A stretch of 64,000 nucleotides of DNA from Jannaschia sp. CCS1 (GTDB lineage: Bacteria; Pseudomonadota; Alphaproteobacteria; Rhodobacterales; Rhodobacteraceae). Positions within the stretch are counted from its first letter, which is position 1. Each line of letters begins with the position of its first letter. The notes under the pieces were generated by a model. The model searched no databases and was not told the DNA's origin. It worked only from the letters and a program-made list of their open reading frames with translations. The stretch covers positions 2,232,001 to 2,296,000 of the forward strand of contig NC_007802.1 of assembly GCF_000013565.1 (NCBI RefSeq). The letters run 5' to 3'. Below are positions 2,378 to 39,083 of the stretch, piece by piece. A program made the translations under genes and the position numbers.

Positions 2378-2461
2378 GGGGGTGCCTTTGATGATTGCGC
2401 GGCTGTCCTAGCACCCAGGGTCTTACCGTGCGGTTAAGCACGCGGAAAGATCACCGCGCGC

Positions 2462-3361: not shown

Positions 3362-3397
3362 GGATTATCCTCTTCACTCTGGATCCCGTTTGGGGCC

Positions 3398-3868: not shown

Positions 3869-3993
3869 GCTGGCGGCTCCTTCAGGCGACTGGCGTGTCC
3901 TTCCACGTTAGCGGGCGGCGACACCGTGTCAAATGAAGCTTCGGTGCGCCGATGCGTGGGCGGGTCTGCGCGAATGCGGGGCGCGCGACCGCC

Positions 3994-4533: not shown

Positions 4534-4618
4534 TTCGCCCCCAAATCCGCGTGGTGCCTTGAATTTCCGCGTTTCTTTTATGACATGAGGCGCAAACGTA
4601 AAAGGCGAAAGGGCCCCC

Positions 4619-5068
4619 GTGCCAAACCATTCCGAGACCAGGCAGCTGCCCTACACGGCCAAACAGATGTACGATCTTGTGGCGGACGTGGCGAAATACC
4701 CTGACTTCATTCCCTGGACCATCGCCACGCGCGTGAAATCGGTGGAGCCGGTGGACGACCACGCGGTGATGCATGCGGACATGGTCGTGGGGTTTCGGAT
4801 GTTCCGGGAGAAGTTTCTGTCTCGCGTGGCGCTGTGGGAGGCGGAGGGAAAAATCGACACGGAATATGTGGACGGCCCCTTCAAGTACCTGATTTCAAAT
4901 TGGGAATTTACCGACACTGAGACGGGGTGCGACGTCCATTTCAAGGTGGATTTTGAATTCAAGAACCGCCTGTTGCAGGGGGCGGCGGGTCTGTTCTTCA
5001 TGGACGCCATGCAGCGGATTGTGCGGGCGTTTGAGAAACGTGCCGACGCGCTCTATGGGTCGGTCTAG
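4619..5068 (+). CDS. RatA/COQ10-family START-domain protein
   Basis: A 149-residue single-domain protein of the polyketide-cyclase/START fold. It opens with the family signature for ubiquinone-binding COQ10-like proteins ([21 protein letters not shown] and PW shortly after) and ends with a long amphipathic helix (residues about 125-147). Members bind lipids or quinones and assist respiratory quinone use; E. coli RatA has also been called a toxin acting on ribosome assembly. The quinone-related role is more likely in alphaproteobacteria. The start is GTG at 4619. A hairpin at 5120-5144 probably ends the transcript. Confidence 0.85.
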
Positions 5069-5119
5069 GGGCCGTTTCCATTGCCACGCAAGATCACATA
5101 GCCCGTGGCACACGCAAGA

Positions 5120-5144
5120 CGCCCGAGCCATGGCCCGGGCGTTT
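5120..5144 (+). terminator. Putative intrinsic terminator after the START-domain gene
   Basis: Arms CGCCCG (5120-5125) and CGGGCG (5136-5141) form a strong stem that extends inward through GCC/GGC with one mismatch and is followed by TTT. It lies between the START-domain gene and the convergent amtB, so it could serve either strand. The T-tract is short. Confidence 0.5.
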
Positions 5145-5170
5145 GTGCAAGGTCTTAACGGACTTAACGT

Positions 5171-7445: not shown

Positions 7446-8590
7446 CGGGCCACCAGCGTGATCGTGGCCAGCGCCGCGATCCCTTCCTCCCGGCCGGTGA
7501 ACCCAAGCCGCTCGGACGTTGTGGCCTTGACGGAGACGCGGGCCACGTCAATCCGCAGAAGGTCGGCCACGCGGGCGCGCATGGCGCTCGCGACGGGCCC
7601 GATCTTGGGCTGCTCACAGATCAATGTCAGATCCGCATTGGTGATGCTGAAGCCCCGGTTCGCCGCAAGCTCCACCGCGTGGGTCAGGAAAATATGGCTC
7701 TCTGCGTCCTTCCATTGGGGGTCACTTGGCGGGAAATGGGTGCCGATATCGCCCTCGGCCAACGCGCCATAGATCGCATCGGTCAACGTATGCAGCCCGA
7801 CATCCGCGTCGGAATGCCCCTGCAAGCCGCGGGTGTGCGGAACCGAGATACCGCACAACCAGACCTGATCACCCGGCCCGAAGCGGTGCACGTCAAATCC
7901 ATTGCCGACCCTGATATCCATGTCGCCTCCCGTCAGCAGCGCCTCGGCGCGTGCGAAATCCTCTGGACCGGTGATCTTCAGGTTGGCCTCGTCACCCGGC
8001 ACGATGGCCACGTCTATCCCCGCCAGGCGCGCAACCTCCACGTCATCGGCGGCTGTGCCATCATGTGCCGCATGTGCTGCACGAATGGCGGACACGTCAA
8101 AGCCTTGCGGCGTCTGCGCGCGCCACAATCCGTCGCGGTTCTGGGTGCCGGACACATGGGTGTCCCCCCGCCACAACGCATCGGTGACGGGCAGGGCGGG
8201 TGCGGCGGCCCCCCCGGCGCGTGTGGCGTCCAACACCGATTGGATGACCGCCAAACTCACGCAAGGCCGCGCCACGTCGTGGATCAGCACGTGGCCCGCA
8301 TCGCAACACACCGCCAGCCCTGCTTTGACCGATGCCGCGCGGCTATCGCCCCCATGCACAACCCGCAATGTCGTCGGCAGGTCGAGGCCGTTCAGCCGCC
8401 ATTCATCGTCTGGATGGATCACAAGGACCACATCAAAGCCCGCGTGATGCGCCGCGAAACGGTTCACCGACCATTCCACGATACTGCGGCCTGCAATGCG
8501 CCGCCATTGCTTGGGTTCGCCCCCTCCAGCGCGGATACCGCGTCCGGCAGCGACGATAATAGCGGTGGCACGTTGCGCAGGTTTTTCCAT
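7442..8590 (-). CDS. ispDF: Bifunctional IspD/IspF of the MEP isoprenoid pathway
   Basis: Fusion enzyme catalysing step 3 (MEP cytidylyltransferase) and step 5 (2-C-methyl-D-erythritol 2,4-cyclodiphosphate synthase) of isoprenoid precursor synthesis. Residues 1 to about 222 are IspD, with the CTP-binding loop [16 protein letters not shown] at 14-29. Residues 224-382 are IspF, opening with the metal-binding GNGFDVHRF and continuing with [15 protein letters not shown]. The frame is open far upstream, but homology begins at [16 protein letters not shown], so ATG at 8590 is chosen (382 residues). The fused form is common in alphaproteobacteria. It is the first gene of the unit with pgpA. Confidence 0.95.
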
Positions 8591-8648
8591 GATGGTTTTG
8601 ATAATCGGTCCCCCTCGGGACAACAACGCGATATAGTTCTGGCGCAAT

Positions 8649-8696
8649 GCATAAGCGCTATGCTTAATTATTGTGCAGTAGACCAAATCTGCGCAA
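8649..8696. promoter_or_regulatory. Dyad-rich intergenic region between ispDF and dusB-ntrBC
   Basis: Two inverted repeats lie in this divergent promoter region: GCATA(AGCGC)TATGC at 8649-8663, and TTGTGCAG (8671-8678) with CTGCGCAA (8689-8696), which matches 7 of 8 pairs across a 10-base spacer. The second has the size of a dimeric regulator site. NtrC autoregulation would fit the neighbouring genes, but the site is not a clear match to the enteric NtrC consensus. Confidence 0.35.
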
Positions 8697-8771
8697 AATA
8701 TCCGCAACCGCCCTTTGTCTTCCCCGATGTCCCGCAGTATCCACCAAGAGACCGCCCAAGGATTAAGCGTT

Positions 8772-9758
8772 TTGCCCGTAACCCTCGCCGACATCGCACT
8801 AGACCCCCCTGTCCTGCTCGCACCGATGGCGGGGATCACGGATCTGCCGTTTCGCAGGCTGGTGGCCAGCTTTGGCGCCGGGCTTGTGGTGAGCGAGATG
8901 GTGGCGTCGCAGGAAATGGTGGAAGCGAAGGCCTCCGTCCGGGCGCGGGCCGAGCTTGGGTTCGGTGAGAACGCCACCGCCGTGCAACTGGCAGGCCGTG
9001 AGGCCCATTGGATGGCGGAGGCCGCCCGGATCGCCGAGGGGCAGGGCGCGCGGATCATCGATATCAACATGGGTTGCCCGGCCAAGAAGGTCGTTGGCGG
9101 GCTGTCAGGCTCTGCGCTGATGCGCGACCTCGACCATGCCTTACGCCTGATTGACGCCGTGGTGGGCGCCGTGAATGTGCCCGTCACGCTAAAGACGCGG
9201 CTGGGGTGGGATGATAAGACGCTGAATGCGCCTGCTCTCGCCCAGAGGGCAGAAACCGCTGGTATCCGGATGATTACCATCCATGGCCGCACCCGGTGCC
9301 AGTTCTACAAGGGCACCGCAAAGTGGGGCGCGATCCGTGCCGTGAAAGACGCCGTGTCGATCCCCGTCATCGCCAATGGCGACATCACCGATGCGCCTGC
9401 CGCCGCGCAAGCCCTGCGCTGTTCCGGGGCCGATGGCGTCATGGTGGGACGTGGCATTCAGGGGCAGCCCTGGCTGGTGGCGGAGATCGGCGCGGCTTTG
9501 TTCGGCACACCGACGCCCGTCGCGCCCCAAGGCGATGCACTGGTCGCGATGGTCGCGGCGCATTACGAAGACATGCTGGCGTTTTATGGCCGTGACTTGG
9601 GCGGCAAAGTCGCGCGCAAGCATTTGGGATGGTACATGGACGGCGCGGGAACCCCGCCCGCATTGCGCAAAGAGGTATTGACCACCAAAGATCCCGGTGC
9701 CGTGTTGAAGGCCCTGCCGCTGGCCCTCGCACAAACGTCCCAAAGGGCCGCCGCATGA
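8772..9758 (+). CDS. dusB: tRNA-dihydrouridine synthase B (NifR3)
   Basis: Flavoprotein that reduces uridine to dihydrouridine in tRNA. The FMN-barrel signature [14 protein letters not shown] is near the N-terminus, followed by [20 protein letters not shown] with the catalytic cysteine, and later ANGDITD and [10 protein letters not shown]. The frame opens at TTG 8715, with an ATG at 8727. I prefer TTG at 8772 because AAGGA sits 9 bases before it (8758-8762) and the protein then begins like the family ([14 protein letters not shown], 328 residues). The stop overlaps ntrB by 4 bases. The nifR3-ntrB-ntrC order is that described in Rhodobacter capsulatus. Confidence 0.93.
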
Positions 9759-10822
9759 GCACGCTGACGAACGCGCTTTGGGTCTCCCTCCCAATCCCTG
9801 CGCTGATCCTCGACGCCGAGGATCGCATCCGCGACCTTAATCCCGTGGCCGAAACGTTCCTGAATGCGTCACAAAAGTCCCTGGATGGGGCGGTGATGTG
9901 GGACAGGATCCACATGTCGACGCCGCTCAAGGACAGCGTGGCGCGGGTGCGCAATTCAGCGTCCTCCCTGCATGTGAACGCGGTGGATGTGGGCTCGGGC
10001 ACGCGCAAACCGGTGTCATGTGACGTGCAGATCTCGGCCCTTGCCGACCGGCCCGACCACGTTCTTGTGCTGATGGAAAACCGGGAGCTTGTGGGCCGCA
10101 TGGACCGTGCGATGTCGTCAAAAACGGCGGCGAAATCGGCGATCGGCATGGCCGAGATGCTGGCCCATGAGATCAAGAACCCCCTGGCCGGCATCACCGG
10201 GGCGGCGCAGCTTATTTCCATGAACGCAAATGCCGAGGATCGGGAGTTGACCGACCTGATCGTGGCAGAGACCCGTCGCGTGCTGAAATTGTTGGAGCAG
10301 GTCGAGGATTTCGGCAATGTGCGCCCGCCCGAGCGACGCGCCGTCAACATCCATGACGTGCTGGACCACGCGCGGCGCTCTGCCTCCGTCGGGTTTGCCG
10401 CGCATATGAATATCATTGAGGATTACGACCCGTCGCTGCCCCACACATGGGCGGACCCCGATCAATTGCAGCAAGTCATCATGAACCTGCTGAAGAACGC
10501 CGCGGAGGCCGGGCAATCCGGCGGCACGATCTGCCTGCGGACGTTTTACGAGATGTCGTTGAAGGTACGCCGCCCCGATGGCTCCGCCGCCGCCGTCCCG
10601 CTTCAGATCGAAGTGAGCGATGACGGCTCGGGTATCGCGCCCGAACTGGTCAAGGACGTGTTTGAACCGTTCGTGTCCGGCCGCGAGAATGGCACGGGCC
10701 TGGGCCTTGCGCTGATCTCGAAGATCGTGGCCGACCATGATGGGTGGGTGGCCGTCGACAGCGTGCCGGGCCGCACCACGTTCCGCATTTCCCTGCCAAT
10801 TGCACCCAAGGAGGCCTCGTGA
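9755..10822 (+). CDS. ntrB: Nitrogen sensor histidine kinase NtrB
   Basis: Cytoplasmic kinase/phosphatase that controls NtrC phosphorylation in response to PII signalling. The protein has 355 residues with no membrane segment: an N-terminal PAS domain (about 8-115), a dimerisation domain with phospho-accepting His138 in AHEIKNPLAGI, and an ATPase domain with the N box (NLLKNAAEA), G1 (DDGSGIAP) and G2 (GTGLGLALI). The ATG at 9755 overlaps the dusB stop (ATGA), which fixes the start although the frame is open further upstream. ntrC follows 56 bases downstream. Confidence 0.95.
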   Translation: MSTLTNALWVSLPIPALILDAEDRIRDLNPVAETFLNASQKSLDGAVMWDRIHMSTPLKDSVARVRNSASSLHVNAVDVGSGTRKPVSCDVQISALADRPDHVLVLMENRELVGRMDRAMSSKTAAKSAIGMAEMLAHEIKNPLAGITGAAQLISMNANAEDRELTDLIVAETRRVLKLLEQVEDFGNVRPPERRAVNIHDVLDHARRSASVGFAAHMNIIEDYDPSLPHTWADPDQLQQVIMNLLKNAAEAGQSGGTICLRTFYEMSLKVRRPDGSAAAVPLQIEVSDDGSGIAPELVKDVFEPFVSGRENGTGLGLALISKIVADHDGWVAVDSVPGRTTFRISLPIAPKEAS

Positions 10823-10878
10823 TGCCCACGCAAAGCCCCCGTGCGCCACGACACACCCTATTGAAAGGCCGCTGATCC

Positions 10879-12258
10879 ATGGACGGAACCGTACTTGTCG
10901 CCGATGATGACCGCACGATCCGCACCGTGTTGACCCAGGCCCTGACGCGCGCAGGCTGCAAGGTCCACGCGACTTCCAGCCTTGTGACGCTGATGCGCTG
11001 GGTGGAGGAGGGAAAGGGCGATCTGGTGATCTCCGACGTGGTCATGCCCGATGGCAATGGTCTCGACACCTTGCCCCAGATTACCGAGGCGCGACCGGGC
11101 CTGCCGGTGATTATCATTTCGGCCCAGAACACGATCATGACGGCGATCCAGGCGACCGAAAAGGACGCCTACGATTATCTGCCAAAACCGTTTGATCTGC
11201 CGGATCTGATGAAACGGGCGGCGCGCGCGCTGGATCTCAAGCGCCGTGCGCCCGTCGCCGCGAAGGCATCGGAACCGGCACTGCCCGCGACCGGTGAGGA
11301 TCTGCCATTGGTGGGGCGCACGCCCGCGATGCAGGCCCTTTATCGCCTTGTGGCGCGGGTGATGAATACCGATCTGACGGTGCTGGTCACAGGCGAAAGC
11401 GGCACCGGCAAGTCCTTGATCGCGCGTGCAATTCACGACTTCTCGGACCGTCGGACATTGCCTTTCGTCGTGGCTTCCGCCGCTGATCTGCGCGGCGCGG
11501 ATGGGCCCTCGATGATCCTCAGTCGCGCCAAGGGCGGCTCGATCCTGTTTGATGAGGTCGGCGATCTTGATGAGGAGGCGCAGGCCAAAATCGTCCGCAT
11601 GCTTGATGCGATGCCGCAGGCCAATCCGCGCATCATGGCGACCTCCCAGAAAGACCTGACCGAGAAGATGGAGGAGGGGCGCTTTCGCCAGGATCTCTAC
11701 TATCGCTTGGGCGGTGTCGGGATCGCGGTGCCGGCGTTGCGCGAACGGGTCGATGACATCCCGCTTCTGGCAAGCCACTTTCTGGCGCGGGCGGAGCGGG
11801 ACGGGGCCGCCCCCCGCCGGTTCTCGGACGCTGCGATGGAACTGGTGCGCGCCTATTCCTGGCCCGGCAATGTGCGCCAGCTGGAAAACTCCATCCGCCG
11901 CCTGACGGTCACCGCGCAGGTCGAAGAGATCAGCCGCGCGGAAGTGGAGGTCGTTTTGGGCTCGCAACCGGCGATTGAGCCGCTGATGTCGGGCGCGAGT
12001 GAGGGCGACAAACTCAGCGCATCGGTGGCCAAACATCTGCGCCGCTACTTCGATCTTCACGGCGGCGTCCTGCCTGCACCCGGCCTATATGCCCGTATTC
12101 TAAAGGAAGTTGAGGCCCCATTGATCGAAATCGCACTGGATGCGACGGCGGGCAATCAAGCTAAATGTGCCGATCTTCTGGGGATCAACCGCAATACCTT
12201 GCGTAAAAAGATCACCGATCTGGATATTCGCGTGACACGCCGCCGCAAACTGGTGTAA
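10879..12258 (+). CDS. ntrC: Nitrogen regulation protein NtrC, lacking the GAFTGA loop
   Basis: DNA-binding response regulator of nitrogen metabolism, 459 residues. The receiver domain (1-120) has the phosphorylation site Asp53 in VISDVVMPD. The AAA+ domain has Walker A GESGTGKS (172-179) and Walker B ILFDEVG (222-228), and the C-terminus has a Fis-type helix-turn-helix around [19 protein letters not shown]. Only about 46 residues separate Walker A and B, compared with about 63 in E. coli NtrC, and the sigma54-contacting GAFTGA loop is absent. Rhodobacter capsulatus NtrC is known to lack it and to activate sigma70-type RNA polymerase. It ends 83 bases before ntrY. Confidence 0.95.
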
Positions 12259-12341
12259 TAAAGCCACACGCGTGGCACATCGGGAACAGGCATCCCGATG
12301 CGCACTGGCCCTGTCAGGCCAAGCAAGCGCGCGCCAGAAGG

Positions 12342-14624
12342 ATGCGGTGGGGGATGCGAGTGGTGGATGAGCCCGCCCGGGGTTTGGGCGATCAGGTGAC
12401 GATACTGGATCGGTTGGGTCGGGTGCGCCGCAACCGGAAGTTCCGCTCGGGTGGAACGATCGCGCTTGTGTTGCTGGCGCCATGCCTTGCGCTGGCCACG
12501 TTCCTCGCCTTCAGCCCGCTCAGGGACGCGTCCGACAGCACGGTACGCACGCTCGTCCTGCTGGCCGATTTCGTCTATATCCTTGTAATCATTACGCTTG
12601 TGCTGCGGGAGGTGGCGCGGATCGTGGCCTCACGCCGCGCGCAATCGGCGGGGTCACGGTTGCATCTGCGGCTGACGGCGATCTTTGGCGTCGTGGCACT
12701 GGTGCCCACCGTTGTCGTGGCCATTCTGGCGGTCCTCAGCGTGAATATGGGTCTTGAGGGGTGGTTCTCGGACCGTGTGTCGACGGCTTTGGGCAATTCC
12801 GTCGACGCCGCCGTGGCCTATCAGCAGGAGCATCGCGATGATCTGGCGCAGGATGCGCGCGCGCTGGGGTCGTTTCTTAACATCAACCGTCGCACCGCCC
12901 CGTTCCTGTCAGACGGAGATCTGCGGCAGGTGCTCAGCGCCGGGCAAAGCCAGATCCAGCGCGGCATCAACGAAGCATTCGTGATCGACGGTGGCGGAGA
13001 GATCCGCGCGCGCGGCGAGCGGTCCTATCAGTTTGATTATGATCGTCCCAGCGATGCCGATCTGGCGCTGGCCGCAGAGGGGGATGTCGTCATCAGCGAA
13101 GATCGCGCGCAGAATGAATTCCGTGCCCTCTTCCGGCTGGCTGCCTTTCCGGATCGCTACCTTTACATCTCTCGGGAGGTCGATGGGCAGATCATCGCGC
13201 TTCTCGATGAAACCGAACAAACCGTACTTCTTTATCGGCAAGTGGAGGAAGATCGCGGGCGGCTGCTGTTTGATTTCGCCCTTCTGTATCTAGGTTTTGC
13301 GACCCTGATGATCCTGGCGGCGATCTGGGCGGGCCTATCGTTTGGAGAACGGTTGTCGCGCCCCGTCGGCCAGTTGGCAGGCGCCGCACAGCGCGTGGGC
13401 CAGGGCGATCTGGACGTGCGCGTGCGCGAGGAGACGTCCGACGATGAAATTGCCATGCTGGGGCGGCTGTTCAACCAGATGACCCGGCAATTGAAAGGTC
13501 AGCGCGAGACGATGATCGAGCAGAACGCCGCAACGGAGGAATCGCGGCGGCTGTTTGACAGCGTTTTGTCGTCCGTCACAGCAGGTGTCATCGGGTTGGA
13601 GAAAGGCGGGCGCGTCGATTTCATGAACCGATCCGCCATGCGGCTTCTGTCCCTGGTCGAACAGCGCGACAGTGGCTTGACGATGGAGGCGGCGGTCCCC
13701 GAATTCGCCCCCTTGTTTGAAAAGCTCACCGGCACCACGGCGGAGGCGGTTCAGGAAGAGATAAAGCTGACCCGCAGCGGCAAACAGGAAAGCCTGCTGG
13801 TGCGGATGGCCACGCGCCGCAATCTGGACGGAGCGTTGGAGGGTTATGTGGTCGCCTTTGATGACGTGACCCAATTGGTTTCTGCGCAGCGCATGGCGGC
13901 CTGGGGCGATGTGGCGCGCCGGATCGCCCATGAGATCAAGAACCCGCTGACCCCGATCCAGCTATCGGCGGAGCGCATAAAACGCAAATTCTCCAGGATG
14001 TTGGAGGACGAAGATAAGGTATCGCTTGAGCAGATGACCGAGGTCATCGTTCGCCAGACCAATGATCTGCGCCGGATCGTCGATGAGTTCTCAAAGTTCG
14101 CGCGGATGCCGGAGCCGGAAACGCGGGTCGAAGATATAGTTCAACTGTTAAACGATGCCGTGATGCTGCAACGGGCGGGGCAGCCCGACACGCATTTCGT
14201 GACGGACATCCCGGACAGACGGGTGCCCGCTGAGGTCGATTCCACGATGATCGGCCAGGCCCTCACCAATTTGTTAAAGAACGGCGGAGAAGCCATTGAA
14301 AGCCTTTATGAAAAAGGTAAACCTGACGGACATGTGCCGCAGTTGCGGGTCGCATTGTCTCTGACGCCGGATGCGCTCCACATCGACATCTCGGACAATG
14401 GGATCGGCCTGCCGCCGGACCGCGCGAAATTGTTCGAGCCTTACGTGACAACCCGCGACAAGGGCACCGGCCTTGGCCTGCCCATCGTCAAAAAGATCAT
14501 TGAGGAGCACGGCGGTACGCTGACGCTGGACGATGCCGAACCGTTTGAGGACGGCGCGCATCCCGGCGCCAGGGCCCGCGTTACGCTGCCACGCCTCCCA
14601 GACCCCACAGGAGAAGAGACATGA
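12342..14624 (+). CDS. ntrY: Membrane sensor histidine kinase NtrY
   Basis: Partner kinase of NtrX, 760 residues. The N-terminus carries membrane segments around residues 38-60, 68-88 and 108-130, then a periplasmic sensor region, another membrane segment near 310-330, a HAMP linker (SRPVGQLAGAAQRVGQGD), a PAS domain, the His box AHEIKNPLTPIQLSAERIK, and an ATPase domain with NLLKNGGEA, DNGIGLPP and GTGLGLPIVKK. The family is linked to nitrogen, redox and oxygen responses in alphaproteobacteria. An alternative ATG is at 12357. The stop overlaps ntrX by 4 bases. Confidence 0.94.
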   Translation: MRWGMRVVDEPARGLGDQVTILDRLGRVRRNRKFRSGGTIALVLLAPCLALATFLAFSPLRDASDSTVRTLVLLADFVYILVIITLVLREVARIVASRRAQSAGSRLHLRLTAIFGVVALVPTVVVAILAVLSVNMGLEGWFSDRVSTALGNSVDAAVAYQQEHRDDLAQDARALGSFLNINRRTAPFLSDGDLRQVLSAGQSQIQRGINEAFVIDGGGEIRARGERSYQFDYDRPSDADLALAAEGDVVISEDRAQNEFRALFRLAAFPDRYLYISREVDGQIIALLDETEQTVLLYRQVEEDRGRLLFDFALLYLGFATLMILAAIWAGLSFGERLSRPVGQLAGAAQRVGQGDLDVRVREETSDDEIAMLGRLFNQMTRQLKGQRETMIEQNAATEESRRLFDSVLSSVTAGVIGLEKGGRVDFMNRSAMRLLSLVEQRDSGLTMEAAVPEFAPLFEKLTGTTAEAVQEEIKLTRSGKQESLLVRMATRRNLDGALEGYVVAFDDVTQLVSAQRMAAWGDVARRIAHEIKNPLTPIQLSAERIKRKFSRMLEDEDKVSLEQMTEVIVRQTNDLRRIVDEFSKFARMPEPETRVEDIVQLLNDAVMLQRAGQPDTHFVTDIPDRRVPAEVDSTMIGQALTNLLKNGGEAIESLYEKGKPDGHVPQLRVALSLTPDALHIDISDNGIGLPPDRAKLFEPYVTTRDKGTGLGLPIVKKIIEEHGGTLTLDDAEPFEDGAHPGARARVTLPRLPDPTGEET

Positions 14625-16018
14625 GCGATATTCTGGTCGTAGATGATGAACGCGATATCCGGGAGTTGATCTGTGATATCCTGCAAGATGAAGGGTTTAC
14701 GACCCGGATGGCGGGCAATTCCGACGAGGCGATGGCGGAGTTGAACAAAAGCGCGCCGGGCCTGATGATCCTCGATATCTGGCTCAAGGACAGCAACATG
14801 GACGGGATCGACATCTTGGGCCATGTGAAGCGGGACAACCCCGAAGTGCCGGTCGTCATCATCTCGGGCCACGGCAACGTCGAAATCGCGGTCGCGGCGA
14901 TCAAACAGGGCGCGTATGACTTCATCGAAAAGCCGTTTAATATCGATCAGTTGATGGTCGTAATCAAACGCGCGATGGAGACGTCGCGTTTGCGCCGCGA
15001 GAACGTGTCGCTGCGGCGTCAGGACACGCGCACGGCGGATATGATCGGCAGCTCGTCTGCCTTCCGGACGCTTAAAAGCCAGCTCGACAAGGTCACGAAA
15101 TCCAATGGCCGCGTCATGCTGACAGGGGGGGCTGGCACCGGCAAGGAAGTGGCCGCGCGCTACGTCCATGCGGAGAGCAACCGCGCCGATGCGCCGTTTG
15201 TGACCGTGGCCAGTGCCTCCATCCAGCCCGATCATATGGAGGAGGTCCTGTTTGGTCGCGAAAGTCAGCAGCGCGGGGTAGAGCAGGGGCTGTTGGAGCA
15301 AGCCCATGGCGGTGTGATCTATTTCGACGAGGTCGCGGATATGCCGCTGGCCACCCAAGCCAAGATCCTGCGCGTCCTGGTCGACCAGAGCTTCACGCGT
15401 GTGGGGGGGACCGGCAAGGTCCGGGTGGATCTGCGTGTGATTTCGTCGACGACCCGGGATTTACAGGTCGAAATAACCGAAGGCCGCTTCCGGGAGGAGC
15501 TGTATCATCGCCTCAACGTTGTGCCGGTTGAGGTTCCGTCGCTGGAAGATCGCCGCGAGGACGTGCCCGAGCTGGCGCGCCATTTCATCGACCTCTTCAA
15601 CCGCGAGCAAGGGCTTGCGATCCGGGAGCTTGGCGACGACGCAGCGGCGATGCTGCAGACAATGTCCTGGCCGGGCAATGTGCGGCAGCTGAAGAACGTG
15701 ATCGAGCGGGTGATGATCCTGGGCGACGGCTCTGGTCCCATCGAGGCGCGCGATCTGCCGGGGCAAGTGGAAGCGCCCACGTCGGAGGAAGACATGGCGC
15801 TGTCGGCGTCCCTCACGACGCTGCCGCTGCGCGAGGCGCGGGAGCTGTTTGAACGGCAGTATCTGATGGCGCAGATCAACCGGTTTGGCGGCAATATTTC
15901 CCGCACGGCCAGCTTTGTGGGCATGGAACGATCCGCCCTGCACCGGAAGCTGAAATCCCTGGGGGTTGTGACCACGTCCAAGGCCGGAACGCGGGTGGCT
16001 CAGGTCAGCGAAGGGTAG
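14621..16018 (+). CDS. ntrX: Response regulator NtrX, without canonical GAFTGA
   Basis: Regulator paired with NtrY, 465 residues. The receiver has Asp52 in MILDIWLKD, and the AAA+ domain has a Walker-A-like GGAGTGKE and Walker B VIYFDEVAD. The C-terminus has a Fis-type helix-turn-helix around ISRTASFVGMERSALHRKL. The segment that normally carries GAFTGA reads LFGRESQQRGVEQG, so sigma54 contact is unlikely. I recall loss of this motif in NtrX of other alphaproteobacteria. The Walker A has GGAGTGKE instead of GESGTGKE, a further departure from activator type. Its start overlaps the ntrY stop, and it ends the plus-strand ntr block. Confidence 0.94.
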   Translation: MSDILVVDDERDIRELICDILQDEGFTTRMAGNSDEAMAELNKSAPGLMILDIWLKDSNMDGIDILGHVKRDNPEVPVVIISGHGNVEIAVAAIKQGAYDFIEKPFNIDQLMVVIKRAMETSRLRRENVSLRRQDTRTADMIGSSSAFRTLKSQLDKVTKSNGRVMLTGGAGTGKEVAARYVHAESNRADAPFVTVASASIQPDHMEEVLFGRESQQRGVEQGLLEQAHGGVIYFDEVADMPLATQAKILRVLVDQSFTRVGGTGKVRVDLRVISSTTRDLQVEITEGRFREELYHRLNVVPVEVPSLEDRREDVPELARHFIDLFNREQGLAIRELGDDAAAMLQTMSWPGNVRQLKNVIERVMILGDGSGPIEARDLPGQVEAPTSEEDMALSASLTTLPLREARELFERQYLMAQINRFGGNISRTASFVGMERSALHRKLKSLGVVTTSKAGTRVAQVSEG

Positions 16019-31958: not shown

Positions 31959-32229
31959 GGTCTTATGTCCTTTCAGATTTCAAAATTGTACCGGCGGACT
32001 TCAATGCTCGTCTGGCACGCTGCTACACTGCCAGTCGGGTGTGAGACCGGCGCAATCGCACCGTGATTAGATCCAGAAAACAGCGCAAAAACGGTCGCCC
32101 AAGCATGAAATTGATGGCCGCCTGCGCGAAAGAGCGAAATTCCGCGGCAGAATTGACAGAGACTTTTTAGAAAGCCTTCGTTAATCTGTGCCGAGGACAG
32201 GTTTACTGCTTATCGGGGGCGTGCGCAGG

Positions 32230-34173
32230 ATGTCACAGGGTCCGTCGGGATCATTTGCAGCCCGTTTCTTCGGAGCTTTTGCTGTCAAGGATCCCTTGGG
32301 AAACCCCGTCACGCCGCGTGGCCAGAAGCCGGCAGCTCTCCTGGCGTATCTTCTGTATAATGCAGGCCGGGACGTGCCCCGCGACCGACTGATTGATATG
32401 TTCTGGAATGATCGCGGGTCCAAGCAGGGGCGCGACAGTCTCAGGCAAGCGCTCCATGTGCTGCGCTCCACGATTGGCGAGGCGGGCGCGGTCCTGATGC
32501 ATATTGATCGACAAAGCGTGCATGTGGTCAAAGCGCATCTTTCAAGCGACTTGCAGCAGAAGGAAGACGCGCCGTGGGAATTGGACGGAGAGTTCCTTGC
32601 TGATCTTGCCCCGACCGCACCCGTCTTCGAGGACTGGTTGACAGAGACACGGCGCGCGGTGCGACGTCATCAGGTTGCGGCGGCAGAGCAGGCCCTGGAC
32701 CGCCTGGATGCGGAGGCCAATCCGGATGCCGTGCTGGCCTGTGCCACCGCGATATTGTCGCTTGATCCCCATCATGAGCCCGCGGCGCGATGCGCGATGG
32801 AACGGTATGCGGTTCAAGGCAAGAGAGGCCACGCGCTCCGCGTTTTCGAGACTTTGTCTGAGGCACTCAAATCAGATGGATTTGAGGTCTCACCAGACAC
32901 GGACAACCTGCTTCGTGCGATCAGCGACAACCGGTTCCCAATCGACAAGCCACACCCCGCGCCAACGCCCCGGCCAGGTGCGTCAGGTGACGCCCGCGGT
33001 TTGCCCGTTGTCTGGCTCGACCTGTCCGAAACCCGCCACGATCGCGATAGCTGGGACTTTGTCTCGGATTTCTGTGATCACCTCATATTGCGGTGTGTCC
33101 AGATGCCGGAGTTCAACCTGCTGACGGTTGAGGATGTCACAGATATTGAGAAATACACTGTGGCCGTCTCATCCGGCACCACCCAATCAGGTCTGCGCAT
33201 CAGCCTGAGGCTCCGGGCGCCGGACGATCACTTGCTGTGGTCGGGTCGCGCGGATCTGCCTGATCAACCGGACGATGACCGGGTTCACCTGGCCGTGGAC
33301 AAGTTGGTGATGCAGATGCTGCCCCCGCTGGAGGCCCATGTGTTCGCAAGTCTGGGCGCGCAGATCGACACCGCCTACGGATATTACCTCAAGGCCAAGC
33401 GGACGTTCTGGACCGATCCGCAATTCGGCTACATCGACAAAGTGGTTGCCGATCTGCAAAGAGCGATCGAGATCGCCCCGACGTTTCTGCCGCCGTACCC
33501 GATGATGATCATGTACCATAATACGGGTATGTTCATGAGCCGGCCAGGCATCGATCACACCGATGGGCGCGCCCAGGCCCTGGACCTGTCGCAGCGGTTG
33601 TTGTTTTTGAACTCGAACTTTCCAAATGCACATATCTCGATGGGGTGGTGCCTGCTCTGGCGGCGAAATTTCGACGCGGCGGAGCGGTCAATCCGTCGCG
33701 CCATTGAACTCGATCCGTATGAGCCGCACAGGCTTAGCGTGATCGGAACAGCGTTGGTCTATCTGGGACATCACGAGGAGGGCCAGCGCTTCTACGACAA
33801 GGCGCAGGGGCGGATGCAGCACGATTTCGATTTCCAGCGCACCGATTATGGGGAACTTCACTTCTTCAAGACAGAGTACGAACGGGCCCTGTCCTGGATG
33901 GAAATCCCCGAGGCCCGAACCCCCTACAAAACGCTTTTCTTCCGGGCAGCCGCCAATGCGCAATTGTCACGCCGAACGGATGCGCAGAACGATATCGACG
34001 CGTTCGTCGAGGATATCCGCCCACGATGGGCGGGCAGGGACCCCTTCACGCCCGAGCGTGGGTTTCAATGGTACGCGGACATGTTGCCCCTGCGGCTCGC
34101 CTCGGACCGTGCGACGCTTCGCGCAGCGATGGGAAAGCTCGGGCTCGACGTCACCGTGCACGAGCCATCGTGA
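32230..34173 (+). CDS. BTAD/TPR transcriptional activator (SARP-like)
   Basis: A transcription activator of about 647 residues. The N-terminus is a winged-helix DNA-binding domain (GQKPAALLAYLLYNAG, DRLIDMFWND, DSLRQALHVLRSTIG), followed by a bacterial transcriptional activation domain of helical repeats (FLADLAP, ALDRLDAEANPDAVLACA). Next comes a TolB/CadC-like alpha/beta module (LPVVWLDLSE, GLRISLRLRAPDDHLLWSGR), then TPR repeats (AHISMGWCLLWRRNFDAAER). GTG 32188, GTG 32221 and ATG 32230 are in frame; ATG is used. Such proteins often govern nearby secondary-metabolite genes, and this one lies 116 bases before the YcaO/TfuA operon on the same strand. Confidence 0.8.
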   Translation: MSQGPSGSFAARFFGAFAVKDPLGNPVTPRGQKPAALLAYLLYNAGRDVPRDRLIDMFWNDRGSKQGRDSLRQALHVLRSTIGEAGAVLMHIDRQSVHVVKAHLSSDLQQKEDAPWELDGEFLADLAPTAPVFEDWLTETRRAVRRHQVAAAEQALDRLDAEANPDAVLACATAILSLDPHHEPAARCAMERYAVQGKRGHALRVFETLSEALKSDGFEVSPDTDNLLRAISDNRFPIDKPHPAPTPRPGASGDARGLPVVWLDLSETRHDRDSWDFVSDFCDHLILRCVQMPEFNLLTVEDVTDIEKYTVAVSSGTTQSGLRISLRLRAPDDHLLWSGRADLPDQPDDDRVHLAVDKLVMQMLPPLEAHVFASLGAQIDTAYGYYLKAKRTFWTDPQFGYIDKVVADLQRAIEIAPTFLPPYPMMIMYHNTGMFMSRPGIDHTDGRAQALDLSQRLLFLNSNFPNAHISMGWCLLWRRNFDAAERSIRRAIELDPYEPHRLSVIGTALVYLGHHEEGQRFYDKAQGRMQHDFDFQRTDYGELHFFKTEYERALSWMEIPEARTPYKTLFFRAAANAQLSRRTDAQNDIDAFVEDIRPRWAGRDPFTPERGFQWYADMLPLRLASDRATLRAAMGKLGLDVTVHEPS

Positions 34174-34289
34174 AACGAACGTGAAAATTTGGGGCCGGAC
34201 CGTTAAATCCGGCTGATCCAGTCGCCCCAGAGCTTGCCCGGGCGCGCCGCGCCGCCTCATCGTGCAGGCGTCAAGGACTGGAGCGCCCG

Positions 34290-36614
34290 ATGCCGAATGA
34301 TCCGTTGAATGCACAGACCATCAGCGATGACGCGATGTTCGCCGCGCGCGCATATATCGTCGAAAATCAACGCTATCCCGATCCAGCACTGCCCCATCCT
34401 GCGCCCGGGCTTGCGGCCGTTCTGAGCCGTATAAAGGGACGCTATCTGTTTCCGGTTCGATCCACGCTGGCCGCCGCCCAGTCCAGGGCCATCTTGCCCG
34501 ACACAAGGGCCTATGTGACGCTTCGGGTCGATCCTGTCTTGGGCAAGATCTCGGGCGACCTTCATGCGGATATCCAACGCAAGACATGGCGTTTGTCGTG
34601 GCAAAGCGTGAGCTTGTTTCATATTGACGCGCCAGTGGGGGTGGATGCCGCGACCTGGGCTGCCAGCGGCTGGACCCTGTTTGGCATCTGCGATCTTGCC
34701 GCAAGTGGCCTGACCGAGCCGTCCGGCAACACGCTGGCACTGGCCCTTCGGATCGCCAGTGACGACACCATCGAGGCCTGTCGCATCATCGAGACCCGGC
34801 CCAACGGGTCAATATCGCGCGACCTGACCATGACGCGGACCCCGAACAAGACGCACGACCTGGCCTACCGCGATCTGACCCCGATTCATCTGGCAGATGC
34901 CGATCTTGAAGCCGATCCGGCGATGAACGCGATCACCCGGCAAGCCCTGGGCCCGAATGGCAACGATATAGCAAACGACCTGCTGGATGCCGGGTCCGGT
35001 CTAGACCTCAGAAGCACCGATGCGGAGTTGAAGATCGTTCAGGGTGACAGTCCGTTTGACATGATTACCCCGTATCAATGGTCCGATGATCCGTTCACCT
35101 ACGCGATCCTGTTTTCGTCCACGCCCAATACGATTTACGGGACCGTCCTCGACCTTGAGAAGGAGCTGTATCCTCTGGCGAAAACCCGGTTCGGTGCCGT
35201 CATCTTCGTGCGTCCGATCATCGACCAGGTCCTTGAGAAAATGGGTTCCACCGATTGGCAGGCCCATCGCGATGCCATCGTCGATCTTTTGCGCCGCACC
35301 TACGTGCATGAGATCGGCCATCTTCTGAACCTCCCGCATACATGGCAGCGCGGGCGTTTCGCGCTTCCCCCGGTGCCTGCGAACCCGGCCGCCCAAAGCT
35401 GGATGGCGTATGGAAGCCGGTTCCCGCTTGGCGATTTCATGACAACCAGCCGCAAGAAAATCGCCAATGGAAGCAAGCCCCAAGAAGACGCGTTGCTCAA
35501 AGCGGATGCGCTTTTGTCGAATGAGGACGCGCTCTCCGATCCGGGCTTCACCGACGCCGAGAAGGGCTGGCTCTGGCACGCGCCGTTCGACCACATCTCT
35601 CCCGGTGGTCCGTATTTCACGGCCCGCGAGCCAGAGCCGGTCCGATTGCATGAACCCGCCGCAAGCTCGGATCTGCGATTGTCGATTGATCTGTGGGACA
35701 CCCACGGCACTGATCCCGACACGGGGGCCGCCATTCTGTCGCGTGGCGCGCATCACCTGTTTTCGTGGCAACCGATCTTTGGAGAGGTTGTCTTCAATGC
35801 GCCGCACAATGTGGCCGCGGACAGTCCATTCCACTTTGCGTTCCAGTCGCCGATGCTCTCGCTTCTGATGCGCGAAGAATACCCGGCGCAACCCGGCAGG
35901 AACATTCCGCTGAAGGTCCGCGAAATTCCGGTCTCGCATTTGCCAGCAGGGTGGCGCGTGCGCACCGATACCGGCTTGGCATCCGCAGATCTGCCGCAGC
36001 AATTCCACACAAGCGCCCTTAGCCCGGCTGCGACAGGGCTGTCCCATCCCGATGGCGTTGGCATATGGGATGAATACCGGCGCACCACGCCCTTCTTTGA
36101 TCCGTTCCAGTTCAGCACGGGGTTCACCGAAAGCGCCTGCACCGATTTTACGCTTCAAGCGGTGCTGCGGCCCGTGGGCCGGGCACCGATCTACTCCGAT
36201 CCGGTGCGCGTCCAGTTCCGGTATCTGTATAAGTCGTTCACCGCGGCAGAGGCCGCGATCCTGTCCGATCCCAAGCTGCCCACGTTGCTGGACACCTTGG
36301 CCTACCTCATCAGCCACGACGTGGTGAACCTTGAACGGCCCTCGCGTCATTCAACCGATGTCAGTGAGTTCCGAAACGCCTTTCAGGATCTGGTGGCCAA
36401 GATCTCGGCCCTGACCGACAACGGCGCGGTATCGCCATCCCTCATGTCGTATCTCAGGATGGTGAACTGGGCCTCCGCGACATTGTCCGGACGGCAAAAC
36501 GGTATCACGCCACCCCGGCCCGACGAGCGGCTTCTTCGCCTGCTGCGTCAGTTTACCCTCAATGATGAACGAGCGCTCACCATACTTGGGCGCAGCTATG
36601 AGATGGAGTTTTAG
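34290..36614 (+). CDS. HExxH metallopeptidase-like protein, first gene of the YcaO/TfuA operon
   Basis: A 774-residue protein of no family I can name. A metzincin-like zinc site is visible: HEIGHLLNLPH at 340-350 (His340, Glu341, His344, His350), with Asn where most metzincins have Gly. About 22 residues later SWMAYGSRFP (370-379) could be the Met-turn. No signal peptide or membrane helix is seen, so it is probably cytoplasmic or exported by another route. The N- and C-terminal regions (1-270 and 400-774) resemble nothing I recognise. It lies 2 bases before the repeat-tailed substrate gene. It may cleave leader from core, or be a target or effector; the sequence cannot decide. Confidence 0.7.
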   Translation: MPNDPLNAQTISDDAMFAARAYIVENQRYPDPALPHPAPGLAAVLSRIKGRYLFPVRSTLAAAQSRAILPDTRAYVTLRVDPVLGKISGDLHADIQRKTWRLSWQSVSLFHIDAPVGVDAATWAASGWTLFGICDLAASGLTEPSGNTLALALRIASDDTIEACRIIETRPNGSISRDLTMTRTPNKTHDLAYRDLTPIHLADADLEADPAMNAITRQALGPNGNDIANDLLDAGSGLDLRSTDAELKIVQGDSPFDMITPYQWSDDPFTYAILFSSTPNTIYGTVLDLEKELYPLAKTRFGAVIFVRPIIDQVLEKMGSTDWQAHRDAIVDLLRRTYVHEIGHLLNLPHTWQRGRFALPPVPANPAAQSWMAYGSRFPLGDFMTTSRKKIANGSKPQEDALLKADALLSNEDALSDPGFTDAEKGWLWHAPFDHISPGGPYFTAREPEPVRLHEPAASSDLRLSIDLWDTHGTDPDTGAAILSRGAHHLFSWQPIFGEVVFNAPHNVAADSPFHFAFQSPMLSLLMREEYPAQPGRNIPLKVREIPVSHLPAGWRVRTDTGLASADLPQQFHTSALSPAATGLSHPDGVGIWDEYRRTTPFFDPFQFSTGFTESACTDFTLQAVLRPVGRAPIYSDPVRVQFRYLYKSFTAAEAAILSDPKLPTLLDTLAYLISHDVVNLERPSRHSTDVSEFRNAFQDLVAKISALTDNGAVSPSLMSYLRMVNWASATLSGRQNGITPPRPDERLLRLLRQFTLNDERALTILGRSYEMEF

Positions 36615-36616
36615 AG

Positions 36617-37183
36617 ATGGCAGATATCCCCGAAGGCCTGCTGATCATGCAAGCGGAACGCGCCTACATTGCGGTGCGCGCCTGGCTTGATCCAGACGGA
36701 AACGAGCTTGCCGAAAGGGGGATCGAGCTGTTCGATACCGCATTCGACAGCCCGGAAGCGCGGGATGGTTTCCGGGCGGTTGTGCGGTCGAAAACCGGCA
36801 ACAAGGAGTTGGAAGAGATTATCGGGCACGTCGTTATTTTCGAGCCCACCACCTCAAACGCAGCGGCGTATCCGAGTGTCTGTGTGTTCCGCACCGAGAT
36901 CGGCGGATCGATGTTCGTCGCCCGCGATATGCGACATATGGTGACGCTTATCCCGCCAGCCGATGGCGTCTTCACCTTCGGGACGGGGGCCTTGCTGGAC
37001 GCCTTCCACGCCAGCTACCCCAATCCCACGATCGACCCCAGTCTCCTCAGCGCCGAGGCGCTGGTCGCTGTGCCGTCAGCGCTGACAATCACCAAGGATG
37101 TTCTGGAAGACGACGAGGTCGGCAACTCGGCAGATTACGGCGATTCCGCGGATTATGGCAGTTCCGCCGACTTCGGTGGATGA
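36617..37183 (+). CDS. Putative RiPP precursor with C-terminal (S)ADY/F-G repeats
   Basis: A 188-residue acidic protein. Residues 1 to about 165 look folded (MADIPEGLLIMQAERAYIAV, later VVIFEPTTSNAAAYPSVCVF) and match no family I know. An acidic linker (EDDEVG) leads to three six-residue repeats at 170-187: NSADYG, DSADYG, SSADFG, then a final Gly188. Its stop overlaps the YcaO start by 4 bases, and the metallopeptidase gene ends 2 bases upstream. Length, repeated C-terminal motif and coupling to YcaO/TfuA suggest a substrate with a large leader domain and a modular core. Direct evidence of modification is lacking. Confidence 0.68.
   Translation: MADIPEGLLIMQAERAYIAVRAWLDPDGNELAERGIELFDTAFDSPEARDGFRAVVRSKTGNKELEEIIGHVVIFEPTTSNAAAYPSVCVFRTEIGGSMFVARDMRHMVTLIPPADGVFTFGTGALLDAFHASYPNPTIDPSLLSAEALVAVPSALTITKDVLEDDEVGNSADYGDSADYGSSADFGG
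37124..37177 (+). repeat. Three 18-base coding repeats for the putative core peptide
   Basis: Three consecutive in-frame 18-base units at 37124-37141, 37142-37159 and 37160-37177 encode NSADYG, DSADYG and SSADFG. The codons differ between units (GCA/GCG/GCC for Ala, TAC/TAT/TTC for the aromatic), so the peptide pattern, not the DNA, appears to be maintained by selection. Confidence 0.85.
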
Positions 37184-38370
37184 CCGCCCCGCGTGCGTCA
37201 GACGCAGGGTCGCCCGGCTCCATCGCCCGAAAAACGTGGGCGCACCGCACGTGCCAGCCGGAGTTCACGTATCGTCGACTGCGCCGGGTTGCGGAGCGTG
37301 TGGGCATAACCCGCGTGGCCGATATCACAGATCTGGACCGCGTCGGCCTTCCCGTATTCCAGGCCGTCCGCCCGATGGGCCGGTCGCTATCGGTCAGCCA
37401 GGGCAAGGGCATGACATCAATGGCCGCGCGGGTATCGGCCATGATGGAGGCGGTCGAAATCTGGCATGCGGAACAAGACCTGCCAACCACTCTCCGGGCG
37501 ACAATCCGGTCTCTTGGAACCCGCCGGGCCATGGACCCCAACCAGCTTCTGATGCCGGGACGAGACAAGGTTTGCGAAGATCTGCCGATTGTCTGGTGTC
37601 CGTCGCTGAACCTCTTGGACGGTGCTGACGTCCTTGTTCCACGGGATGCGGCGAACCTGGATTTCACCCGGGCCCCTGATCCGCCCATGCTTGCGCGCAG
37701 TACAACCGGCCTCGCAGGTGGCAACACCAGAGACGAGGCCCGCGCGTCGGCGATTGCGGAGGTGATCGAGCGGGCGTGCCAACGGGAATTCCAGCGCCTT
37801 CCGCCGGCCAGTCGGGCGCAGCGCCGCCTAGATCCAACCTGTCTTGCCAGTGCCCACCGCGGCCTGGCAGATCCAATCGAGCGGATCAGGTCAGCAGGGT
37901 TGCACCTTGATATCTTTGACATGACTAACCGCTTCGACGTTCCGGCCATTCGCGCCGTGATTTACGAGACAACAGCCGGCAAACCGGTCGCATGGCCCTG
38001 TCTCGGTCACGGGGCGCATCTTGATCCCGTCACCGCCGTGGTGCGGGCGCTGACCGAGGCCGCCCAGGCGCGCCTGACCGGTATCTCAGGCAACCGCGAC
38101 GACATCTCCCCGGGACATTACGCGGGGGCCGACATGTCCAATTGGGTGCTGCGGGCAATGAACGGCATGGATATGTCCGGCACCCGACGCGGGTTGCGCC
38201 ATCACGATGCAAGCGGTGATAGCCCGGCTGCCGACGTCGCAGCGATGATCGCGCGGATCACGGCCCATGACGCGGACCCGCTTCTGGAGGTCGACCTATC
38301 GCGCCCCGAGATCGGTGTGCCCGTGGTCAAGATCATCGCGCCCCGCATCGCCTATCTGGCGTCCCGATGA
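37180..38370 (+). CDS. YcaO-domain protein, TfuA-associated type
   Basis: A 396-residue YcaO enzyme, the family that uses ATP to activate a peptide-backbone amide. Signature segments are present: SQGKG (73-77), SAMMEAVE (86-93), TTGLAGGN (175-182), AEVIER (193-198), RALTEAAQ (289-296) and GNRDD (304-308), which carry the ATP- and magnesium-binding residues. The C-terminus ends LSRPEIGVPVVKIIAPRI without the PxPxP tail of azoline-forming YcaO proteins. No E1-like/ThiF partner is present, but tfuA follows directly. This combination is known from thioamide formation (thioglycine in methyl-CoM reductase, thioamitides). Overlaps of 4 bases couple it to both neighbours. Confidence 0.92.
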   Translation: MTAPRASDAGSPGSIARKTWAHRTCQPEFTYRRLRRVAERVGITRVADITDLDRVGLPVFQAVRPMGRSLSVSQGKGMTSMAARVSAMMEAVEIWHAEQDLPTTLRATIRSLGTRRAMDPNQLLMPGRDKVCEDLPIVWCPSLNLLDGADVLVPRDAANLDFTRAPDPPMLARSTTGLAGGNTRDEARASAIAEVIERACQREFQRLPPASRAQRRLDPTCLASAHRGLADPIERIRSAGLHLDIFDMTNRFDVPAIRAVIYETTAGKPVAWPCLGHGAHLDPVTAVVRALTEAAQARLTGISGNRDDISPGHYAGADMSNWVLRAMNGMDMSGTRRGLRHHDASGDSPAADVAAMIARITAHDADPLLEVDLSRPEIGVPVVKIIAPRIAYLASR

Positions 38371-39083
38371 GCATTCCCGTCATATTCGCGGGGCCCAGTC
38401 TGCTGCCCGCCGATCGCACCTTGGAAACGATCGAATTCCGTCCACCAGCGCGCCAAGGCGACGTCCTACGGTGTATGACCTCGGAGCCATCGGCCATCGG
38501 CATCGTGGACGGTTACTTCGGCACAACCTTGAGCGTGCACCAGAAAGAGATACTGGAGGCGATGGATTGTGGCATTCCCGTTCTTGGCGCGGCGTCGATG
38601 GGGGCCCTTCGGGCCGCTGAACTTGCGCCGTTCGGCATGATCGGTGTCGGTGGCATCTTCGAGGATTATCGCTCGGGCCGGATCGAAAATGACGCCGATG
38701 TGGCCGTGACCCATGGCCCGGCCGAGCTTTGCTATCCGGCGACGTCGATCGCCATGGTCGACATCCGGGCCACCTTGGCGGCCATGGCGGACGATTATCC
38801 CGCCGACCTGCTTGACAGGCTTCAGGGTGCGGCAGAGAGCCTCCATTTCTCAAAACGCAGTTTTGACGAGATCGCCCGTCGTGCGGGAGCGGCGCCGGGC
38901 CATACGGAGGACCTGTTGCGTGCGCATTACGTGGCGCGCAAACGTCACGACGCGCGCGCGCTTCTCGACTGCATGGAAGAGGGCGACTACAGCCTATCGC
39001 GGACCGCTCCGCCCGTGCCGATGACGCATGAATACAGGAAAATCCGGTCCAGAACGTTGAGCGGAGTGGAGCCAGTGGGTTGA
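38367..39083 (+). CDS. TfuA-family protein
   Basis: A 238-residue TfuA-like protein, named from the trifolitoxin gene cluster. Conserved features are VIFAGPSLLP at the N-terminus, PPARQGDV (26-33), GIVDGYFGTTLSVHQKEIL (45-63), the strongest block GIPVLGAASMGALRAAEL (69-86), and GVGGIFEDY with NDADVAVTHGPAE. In known systems TfuA works with YcaO in thioamidation, probably delivering sulfur. It is the last gene of the operon (ATGA overlap with ycaO). No exporter or immunity gene follows before the minus-strand importer operon. Confidence 0.92.
   Translation: MSIPVIFAGPSLLPADRTLETIEFRPPARQGDVLRCMTSEPSAIGIVDGYFGTTLSVHQKEILEAMDCGIPVLGAASMGALRAAELAPFGMIGVGGIFEDYRSGRIENDADVAVTHGPAELCYPATSIAMVDIRATLAAMADDYPADLLDRLQGAAESLHFSKRSFDEIARRAGAAPGHTEDLLRAHYVARKRHDARALLDCMEEGDYSLSRTAPPVPMTHEYRKIRSRTLSGVEPVG

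Follow-up and report, generated by a model that had tools for sequence, protein, structure and literature searches.

A YcaO-TfuA locus of Jannaschia sp. CCS1 and its relatives, with a repeat-tailed protein as the probable thioamidation substrate

The present analysis concerns a window of 64,000 nucleotides from Jannaschia sp. CCS1 (contig NC_007802.1, positions 2,232,001 to 2,296,000; all coordinates given for this genome are those of the window). The list of open reading frames (ORFs) shows that five plus-strand genes at 32230-39083 encode, in this order, a BTAD/TPR regulator, a large protein with an HExxH motif, a protein of 188 amino acids (aa) with a repeated C-terminal tail, a YcaO enzyme and a TfuA protein (Table 1). 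Judging from the sequences of this locus and of its relatives, the YcaO/TfuA pair probably replaces backbone oxygen by sulfur in the repeated tail. We put at about 0.7 the probability that the locus makes thioamides and that the 188-aa protein is the precursor, with its C-terminal tail as the core. This compact gene set is probably a variant of the YcaO-TfuA thioamidation clusters, with a tail protein longer than the precursors mined earlier.

Results

Gene coupling and the YcaO/TfuA pair

A first-pass annotation of this DNA had described four plus-strand genes coupled by a 2-base gap or 4-base overlaps and ending with intact YcaO and TfuA genes, and had proposed the protein encoded before YcaO as the substrate. 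The ORF coordinates confirm the coupling from the HExxH gene to TfuA: the gap between the HExxH and 188-aa genes is 2 bases, and the 188-aa/YcaO and YcaO/TfuA junctions are 4-base overlaps. The upstream regulator gene ends 116 bases before the HExxH gene; therefore, the coupled four are the HExxH, 188-aa, YcaO and TfuA genes, which form one plus-strand unit. Promoter and terminator counts at the locus are at chance level.

YcaO and TfuA are both whole according to their Pfam models (Table 1). An adjacent intact pair of this kind, the hallmark of YcaO-TfuA thioamidated ribosomally synthesised and post-translationally modified peptides (RiPPs), is thus present in the window, and both genes are found at all eight loci considered below. 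The nearest solved structures are MJ1094 for YcaO (6pe3, E 7.6e-28) and the TfuA protein 6xp8 for TfuA (E 6.5e-25). The genome of Jannaschia sp. CCS1 (4.4 Mb, two contigs) contains a single YcaO match, that of the locus, and a single ThiS match, a ThiS homologue. Few genomes of the family encode TfuA (14 of 394, this one included). According to the available parts of the cited papers, YcaO activates backbone amides with ATP and, together with TfuA, gives rise to thioamides (PMC13063428, PMC5589413, PMC13185837), and TfuA hydrolyses thiocarboxylated ThiS, the source of sulfide (PMC13185837).

The repeated tail of the 188-aa protein

The repeat tail noticed in the first-pass annotation is real. 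A tandem array with a period of 18 bases (2.7 copies, score 54) lies at 37120-37167, and the motif [AS][AE][DN][FY]G, which was written once the tails had been seen, occurs three times in the 188-aa protein, a number reached in none of 20,000 shuffles. The protein encoded just before YcaO at the other loci is of comparable size (173 aa in L032, 200 in L033, 170 in L034, 193 in L035, 152 in L036 and 196 in L045), and in L046 a C-terminal frame of 104 aa is the only readable part. Its C-terminus is mostly rich in Gly, Asp, Ala and Ser: GNSADYGDSADYGSSADFGG in the window, GGAASENYGNGGI in L032, GNASAADFGNAADAGN in L033, TSAVDASSAVDGGN in L034, ETYGDAGAPGTFGAEHGGSGSLRNEW in L035, NADGGGDGFG in L046 and four DAADFG units followed by DAADSDD in L045. 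The motif is found three times in the window, four times in L045 and once each in L032 and L033, and is missing from L034, L035, L036 and L046. The looser signature of an aromatic residue followed by glycine within the last 36 residues, a motif and a length that were both picked after viewing the tails, is present in seven of the eight tail proteins versus none of the 31 C-termini taken from the four other proteins of the loci; these steps amount to 13, versus about 1.4 expected from the body of the proteins. The locus thus encodes a candidate precursor with a variable core beside YcaO/TfuA (three units in the window, 4+1 in L045, no tail in L036).

The strongest signal comes from L045, whose first four units are the same peptide despite 20 synonymous pairwise codon differences and no non-synonymous one, all six variable columns being third codon positions. 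It follows that selection keeps the peptide and that the repeat is no fresh DNA duplication. The signal is weaker for the three units of the window (eight synonymous and five non-synonymous differences). Furthermore, the four L045 units consist of D, A, F and G only and are devoid of Ser, Thr and Cys; Ser is present in the window units.

Neither Pfam nor NCBIfam yields a match for the 188-aa protein up to E = 1, the six-row profile of the tail proteins has no PDB match, and a Pfam scan of the five tail proteins other than those of L036, L046 and L045 gave a single chance match (DUF2909, 0.29). Similarity is significant for the window and L032 (6e-12) and for L033 and L034 (2e-7), and is lower for L045 and L034 (2e-4) and for L046 and the window (0.006). 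Six tail proteins align around an invariant Arg103, preceded by (F/L)(R/K/E) and a Gly stretch.

Homologues widespread without YcaO/TfuA, named beforehand as the finding that would speak against a substrate role, were not encountered. A single-sequence search, which reaches near relatives only, found the protein in one of 248 family genomes, its own. The six-row profile matched four of 390 genomes of the order (this one, G537, G604 and G623), always at the operon; since all four are rows of the profile, the result is that no further homologue was found, and the profile missed the L046 remnant of G525, if G525 was in the draw. Viral contigs and plasmids gave no match for the 188-aa protein, nor did plasmids for the L045 tail protein. 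A match in a genus-mate (G394, E 0.077) was dropped because it translates to a low-complexity frame. By eye, no repeat tail of this kind was seen in the upstream ORFs of 11 other TfuA loci of the family.

Recurrence of the gene set

The set was found at seven other alphaproteobacterial loci, of which L032, L033, L035 and L036 came from a scan with the HExxH protein, L034 from TfuA and then again from HExxH, and L045 and L046 from an HExxH profile. Their comparison supports the earlier proposal that the protein encoded before YcaO is the likely substrate: a protein with a mostly Gly-rich and in many cases repeated tail is encoded directly before YcaO at these loci, with the exceptions of L036, which has no tail, and L046, where the C-terminal part alone remains.

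The co-occurrence of the HExxH protein with YcaO/TfuA, a check suggested in the first-pass annotation, was found in every case of a species-wide scan. A two-row alignment of the HExxH protein (window and L026, which is the L034 locus), run as a query against 84,980 species with a single genome per species, revealed five loci, one of them L034, all near YcaO, TfuA and the regulator. In the order, a six-row profile matched eight of 390 genomes, five of which carry YcaO, TfuA and the regulator there (this genome, G537 and G604 with known loci, and those of L045 and L046); the other three matches, without YcaO/TfuA, are short and lie around the motif (G080, 1.4e-8; G520, 1.0e-4; G610, 1.6e-4). A sample of 385 genomes of the class gave, besides this genome, seven weaker matches (best 5.1e-13). 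TfuA is absent from the whole genomes of all five distant HExxH relatives searched (G080, G610, G520, G987 and G904), and no YcaO/TfuA match is found in the stretches around the distant relatives L047, L048, L049 and L061-L064; among the weak class-wide matches, G917 and G974 are covered by their stretch alone, and G861, G822 and G993 lie outside this check. Overall, the close branch of HExxH proteins travels with YcaO/TfuA and the wider superfamily does not.

In an all-against-all comparison of the ORFs of at least 100 aa from the eight loci (E<=1e-8), only the five genes and their shadow frames are linked across loci: the regulator, YcaO and TfuA at 8/8 loci, the HExxH protein at 7/8 and the tail protein at two. 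The HExxH protein left unlinked is that of L036, which was matched at 2e-8 in a separate comparison. The regulator gene stands on either side of the set, depending on the locus; in L034, the HExxH, tail protein, YcaO and TfuA genes follow in order and the regulator is convergent downstream. Within the same limits, no dehydrogenase or E1-like partner gene is common to the eight loci.

The YcaO proteins of seven loci group together (89/87), L036 being outside on a long branch; the TfuA proteins of seven loci also group (93/94), and all eight do so only weakly (54/51). The membership of L036 is the most doubtful.

Two loci deserve a separate description. L046 (6332-10385) is a decaying copy in which the regulator is split into two ORFs and a transposase ORF lies inside the HExxH gene; YcaO, TfuA and the tail ORF remain. 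In L026, a 1039-aa protein (2315-5434), which presumably combines an SGNH hydrolase and a trypsin-like domain, precedes the HExxH gene and, in the all-against-all comparison, is linked to no ORF of the other loci.

The HExxH protein

The sequence HExxHLLNLxH is found in all seven aligned members, beginning with HE[ILF]GH in six and with HELTH in L045, and is followed by a SW(M/T)NYG-like sequence. The Met-turn is a feature of metzincins; its possible position is occupied by Met in the window, L032, L033 and L036 (4/7), by Thr in L034 and L045 and by Val in L035. HExxHxxG/NxxH with a third histidine is also a pattern that fits metzincins. Profile matches are weak: the best in the PDB are ulilysins (E 0.15), the NCBIfam archaemetzincin model matched four of seven members (best 0.0021), and the Pfam families Peptidase_M10 and Peptidase_M43 matched two of six (best 0.0034) and one of six (0.097). 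Up to E<=1, the seven members matched only archaemetzincin, entericidin B and a BF0631-type metzincin in NCBIfam. A Foldseek search with the AlphaFold model, whose predicted local distance difference test score (pLDDT) is 47, returned 669 matches at E<=10, of which none reached E<=0.001, and no zinc peptidase title stands among the best 50 of these 669. Together, the motifs and profile matches suggest, but do not prove, that the protein is a metzincin. In other RiPP pathways, metalloproteases of other families remove leaders (available part of PMC10885120).

No plasmid match was found for the L045 HExxH protein. A match to the HExxH protein on an Embleya plasmid was set aside, as no YcaO, TfuA or regulator match lies in the 18 kb around it. 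L047, L049, L061, L062 and L052 encode large HExxH proteins of a wider family (HE.GHxxNLxH, often SFMxYP), which have no YcaO/TfuA in their vicinity; one such gene of L049 is divergent to that of a BTAD-type regulator.

The regulator and neighbouring YcaO-TfuA classes

The regulator carries BTAD (PF03704, 1.3e-9), TPR_1 (9.5e-8) and Trans_reg_C (7.7e-5) domains (Pfam) and has homologues at all seven other loci, in two pieces in L046. In an independent test on 72,556 plasmid records, it had only two matches at E<=1e-15, both beside a YcaO-TfuA fusion on Polymorphobacter plasmids (L073 and L074). There, at 8343-15158, a 117-aa protein with a Gly/Asn-rich tail ending GQTGRSGFAQGGPGGLGGDVNFNVNFENNPQK precedes the fused gene, the BTAD regulator is convergent, a further gene with a regulator-like N-terminus lies at 13134-15158, and no HExxH homologue is found in about 18 kb. 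L073 and L074 share the regulator family and form a second class, one that lacks the HExxH gene. In L028 (8090-12272, G223), YcaO and TfuA also stand with a convergent BTAD/TPR regulator and no HExxH match, and a 102-aa ORF ending WGGGR lies before YcaO. Therefore, the regulator marks a group wider than the HExxH class.

Other arrangements were observed around YcaO. Proteins of about 1000 aa are encoded directly before it in three family genomes (L023, L024 and L025), two of them starting with a GERRQLTVLFYDI segment that we take to be cyclase-like. In L027 (oriented 7665-7931) and L030 (8151-8369), similar-looking proteins of 72-88 aa ending ALGL/AMGL precede YcaO and are likely precursors of another YcaO/TfuA class.

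Table 1. Features of the locus and the basis of each assignment
Feature	Position	Strand	Basis or remark
BTAD/TPR transcriptional regulator	32230..34173	+	647 aa from ATG 32230; in-frame GTG 32188 (ORF 32188-34173)
Metzincin-like HExxH protein, 774 aa	34290..36614	+	no significant Pfam family
Zinc-site motif HEIGHLLNLPH, residues 340-350	35307..35339	+	sequence; invariant columns
Possible Met-turn segment SWMAYG, residues 370-375	35397..35414	+	sequence alignment
Proposed substrate/precursor, 188 aa	36617..37183	+	position before YcaO; stop codon overlaps YcaO start
Proposed core GNSADY GDSADY GSSADF GG	37121..37180	+	three six-residue units, three aromatic-Gly steps
YcaO enzyme, 396 aa	37180..38370	+	PF02624 5.8e-67
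TfuA protein, 238 aa	38367..39083	+	PF07812 3.3e-39

Discussion

In the explanation that we favour, the N-terminal part of the 188-aa protein (about 165 residues) would be a recognition domain or leader and its C-terminal tail the core. In the tail, YcaO would use ATP to activate backbone amides; the sulfide would be delivered by TfuA and would probably come from a ThiS-type carrier whose gene lies elsewhere. The most likely site would be the glycine after Tyr/Phe in each repeat, giving up to three thioamides here and four in L045, but this choice of glycine is a guess. Gly465 of McrA presumably follows an aromatic residue. This glycine is the target of the methanogen enzymes (PMC5589413, available part). 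The metzincin-like protein would most likely free or trim the modified tail, or act together with it, and the BTAD/TPR protein would be the transcriptional activator of the pathway.

Several observations weigh against this explanation. Neither YcaO (200 bits, cut-off 365 for TIGR03266) nor TfuA (158.1 bits, cut-off 235.2 for NF033432) attains the McrA-specific cut-offs of NCBIfam. The L036 YcaO lies outside the group of the other seven, with an approximately unbiased test value (p-AU) of 0.059 for all eight together, and L036 has no aromatic-Gly tail. The tail protein is poorly conserved, the L035 and L036 copies matching none of the others; the stricter motif occurs at only four of eight loci, and in L034 the aromatic-Gly step precedes the SAVD repeats. 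The tails of the window and of its relatives also contain Asn and Asp, possible alternative sites to glycine, and a Streptomyces YcaO-TfuA pair thioamidates Asn (PMC13174530, available part). The eight loci share no transporter among their ORFs of at least 100 aa at E<=1e-8. Finally, the AlphaFold models of the HExxH protein (pLDDT 47.1) and of the tail protein (pLDDT 40.8) are too poor for use.

The absence of a common transporter would suit a 188-aa protein that stays whole in the cell, its thioamidated tail having a structural or metal-binding role, such as holding the HExxH zinc site, in which case it would not be a RiPP. Whole proteins modified in this way have precedents in methyl-CoM reductase and uL16, which carry thioamides, and E. 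coli YcaO recognises the uL16 fold (PMC13063428, available part). Furthermore, the N-terminal part would make a long leader (the whole proteins have 152-200 aa), and the tail gene comes after the HExxH gene at every locus where both are whole. However, the varying number of repeats and the low identity of the tail proteins (27-33%, versus 38-54% for YcaO) look like those of a RiPP precursor; since identities among the HExxH proteins are hardly higher (28-38%), this divergence is a weak argument, and we regard a whole-protein role as a minority possibility, rather doubtful but with real points in its favour. A more specific version, in which the sulfur-bearing repeat tail of a folded protein, with several thioamides, would engage the zinc of the neighbouring metzincin as a latch, inhibitor or protease-proof tether instead of being a secreted peptide, seems unlikely to us.

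HExxH proteins of RiPP clusters can also be alpha-ketoglutarate oxygenases (PMC12636437, available part). The HExxH protein could then be an oxidative tailoring enzyme, or even the real substrate, with the 188-aa protein as an adaptor only. However, the repeat tail sits in the 188-aa protein, and of the three NCBIfam models matched by the seven HExxH members at E<=1, two are of metzincin type and the third is a chance match, a point limited by the unconfirmed presence of an alpha-ketoglutarate HExxH model in that library. The third histidine of HExxHxxNxxH also fits metzincins, and we consider such an oxidative or substrate role improbable. Other YcaO enzymes make azolines or amidines, and the present one might do so with TfuA being vestigial; the window units do contain serines, and an amidine would need no Ser, Thr or Cys. 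Azolines need one of these residues and therefore cannot form in the four exact L045 units, which argues for thioamides and is still compatible with an amidine. As TfuA is kept at all eight loci, which share no dehydrogenase or E1-like partner among the ORFs compared, we give azoline or amidine formation very little credit. The least credible explanation, almost negligible in our view, is a chance arrangement, the zincin and the low-complexity protein having nothing to do with the YcaO/TfuA pair: the distant HExxH relatives do lack TfuA in 5/5 genomes searched, but chance is contradicted by the seven other loci where the set recurs, the regulator being now on one side and now on the other.

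If the favoured explanation holds, the locus reveals a class of thioamide clusters with precursors (152-200 aa) too long for the default range (20-120 aa) of the mining tool in a global survey. With four identical units that contain no Ser, Thr or Cys, the L045 relative would be a clean substrate for locating TfuA-dependent thioamides in Gram-negative bacteria.

Comparison with known systems

The first-pass annotation knew of no described family with this gene set, and we likewise found no description of it in the open-access literature. In 2021, no YcaO-TfuA thioamidated RiPP was known in Proteobacteria according to the available part of a survey (PMC8120280). This work of Malit et al. catalogued 613 families of TfuA-related clusters, 70% of the 2,326 clusters being from Proteobacteria, and resembles the present locus in having YcaO beside TfuA. 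To find precursors, the survey ran RiPPER with its standard settings, and the default length range of that tool is 20-120 aa (PMC6511847). Since the tail proteins exceed this length, such clusters may be among the 613 families with their precursor uncounted; the words "BTAD" and "metallo" do not occur in the available main text (supplements apart).

The characterised YcaO-TfuA RiPP classes named in the available text of PMC13174530 are thioviridamide-like compounds, thiovarsolins, thioamidated thiopeptides, chimeric lanthipeptides and std. As in these classes, the YcaO-TfuA pair of the locus adjoins a (putative) precursor, but its gene set is none of them, and BTAD, metalloprotease and Alphaproteobacteria do not occur in that text. 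The Polymorphobacter plasmid loci share with the present one a BTAD/TPR regulator facing the YcaO-TfuA gene and a Gly/Asn-rich-tailed protein before it, and differ by the fusion of YcaO and TfuA and by the lack of an HExxH gene. The methanogen YcaO-TfuA system acting on the McrA glycine provides the nearest curated families and the nearest structures. However, the locus scores under both of its cut-offs, and the proposed target is a neighbour-encoded repeat tail and not an enzyme active site.

The thiovarsolin cluster of Streptomyces (varA/varY/varT) likewise has a repeating precursor beside YcaO and TfuA (PMC6511847, available part). It differs by its APR core and by its heme-oxygenase-like, ligase, amidinotransferase and transporter genes, whereas the putative precursor of the present locus is long and is accompanied by an HExxH protein and a BTAD/TPR regulator. 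Relatives of the thiovarsolin precursor carry from none to five imperfect repeats (PMC6511847), and this family is the nearest precedent for the varying repeats of the tail proteins.

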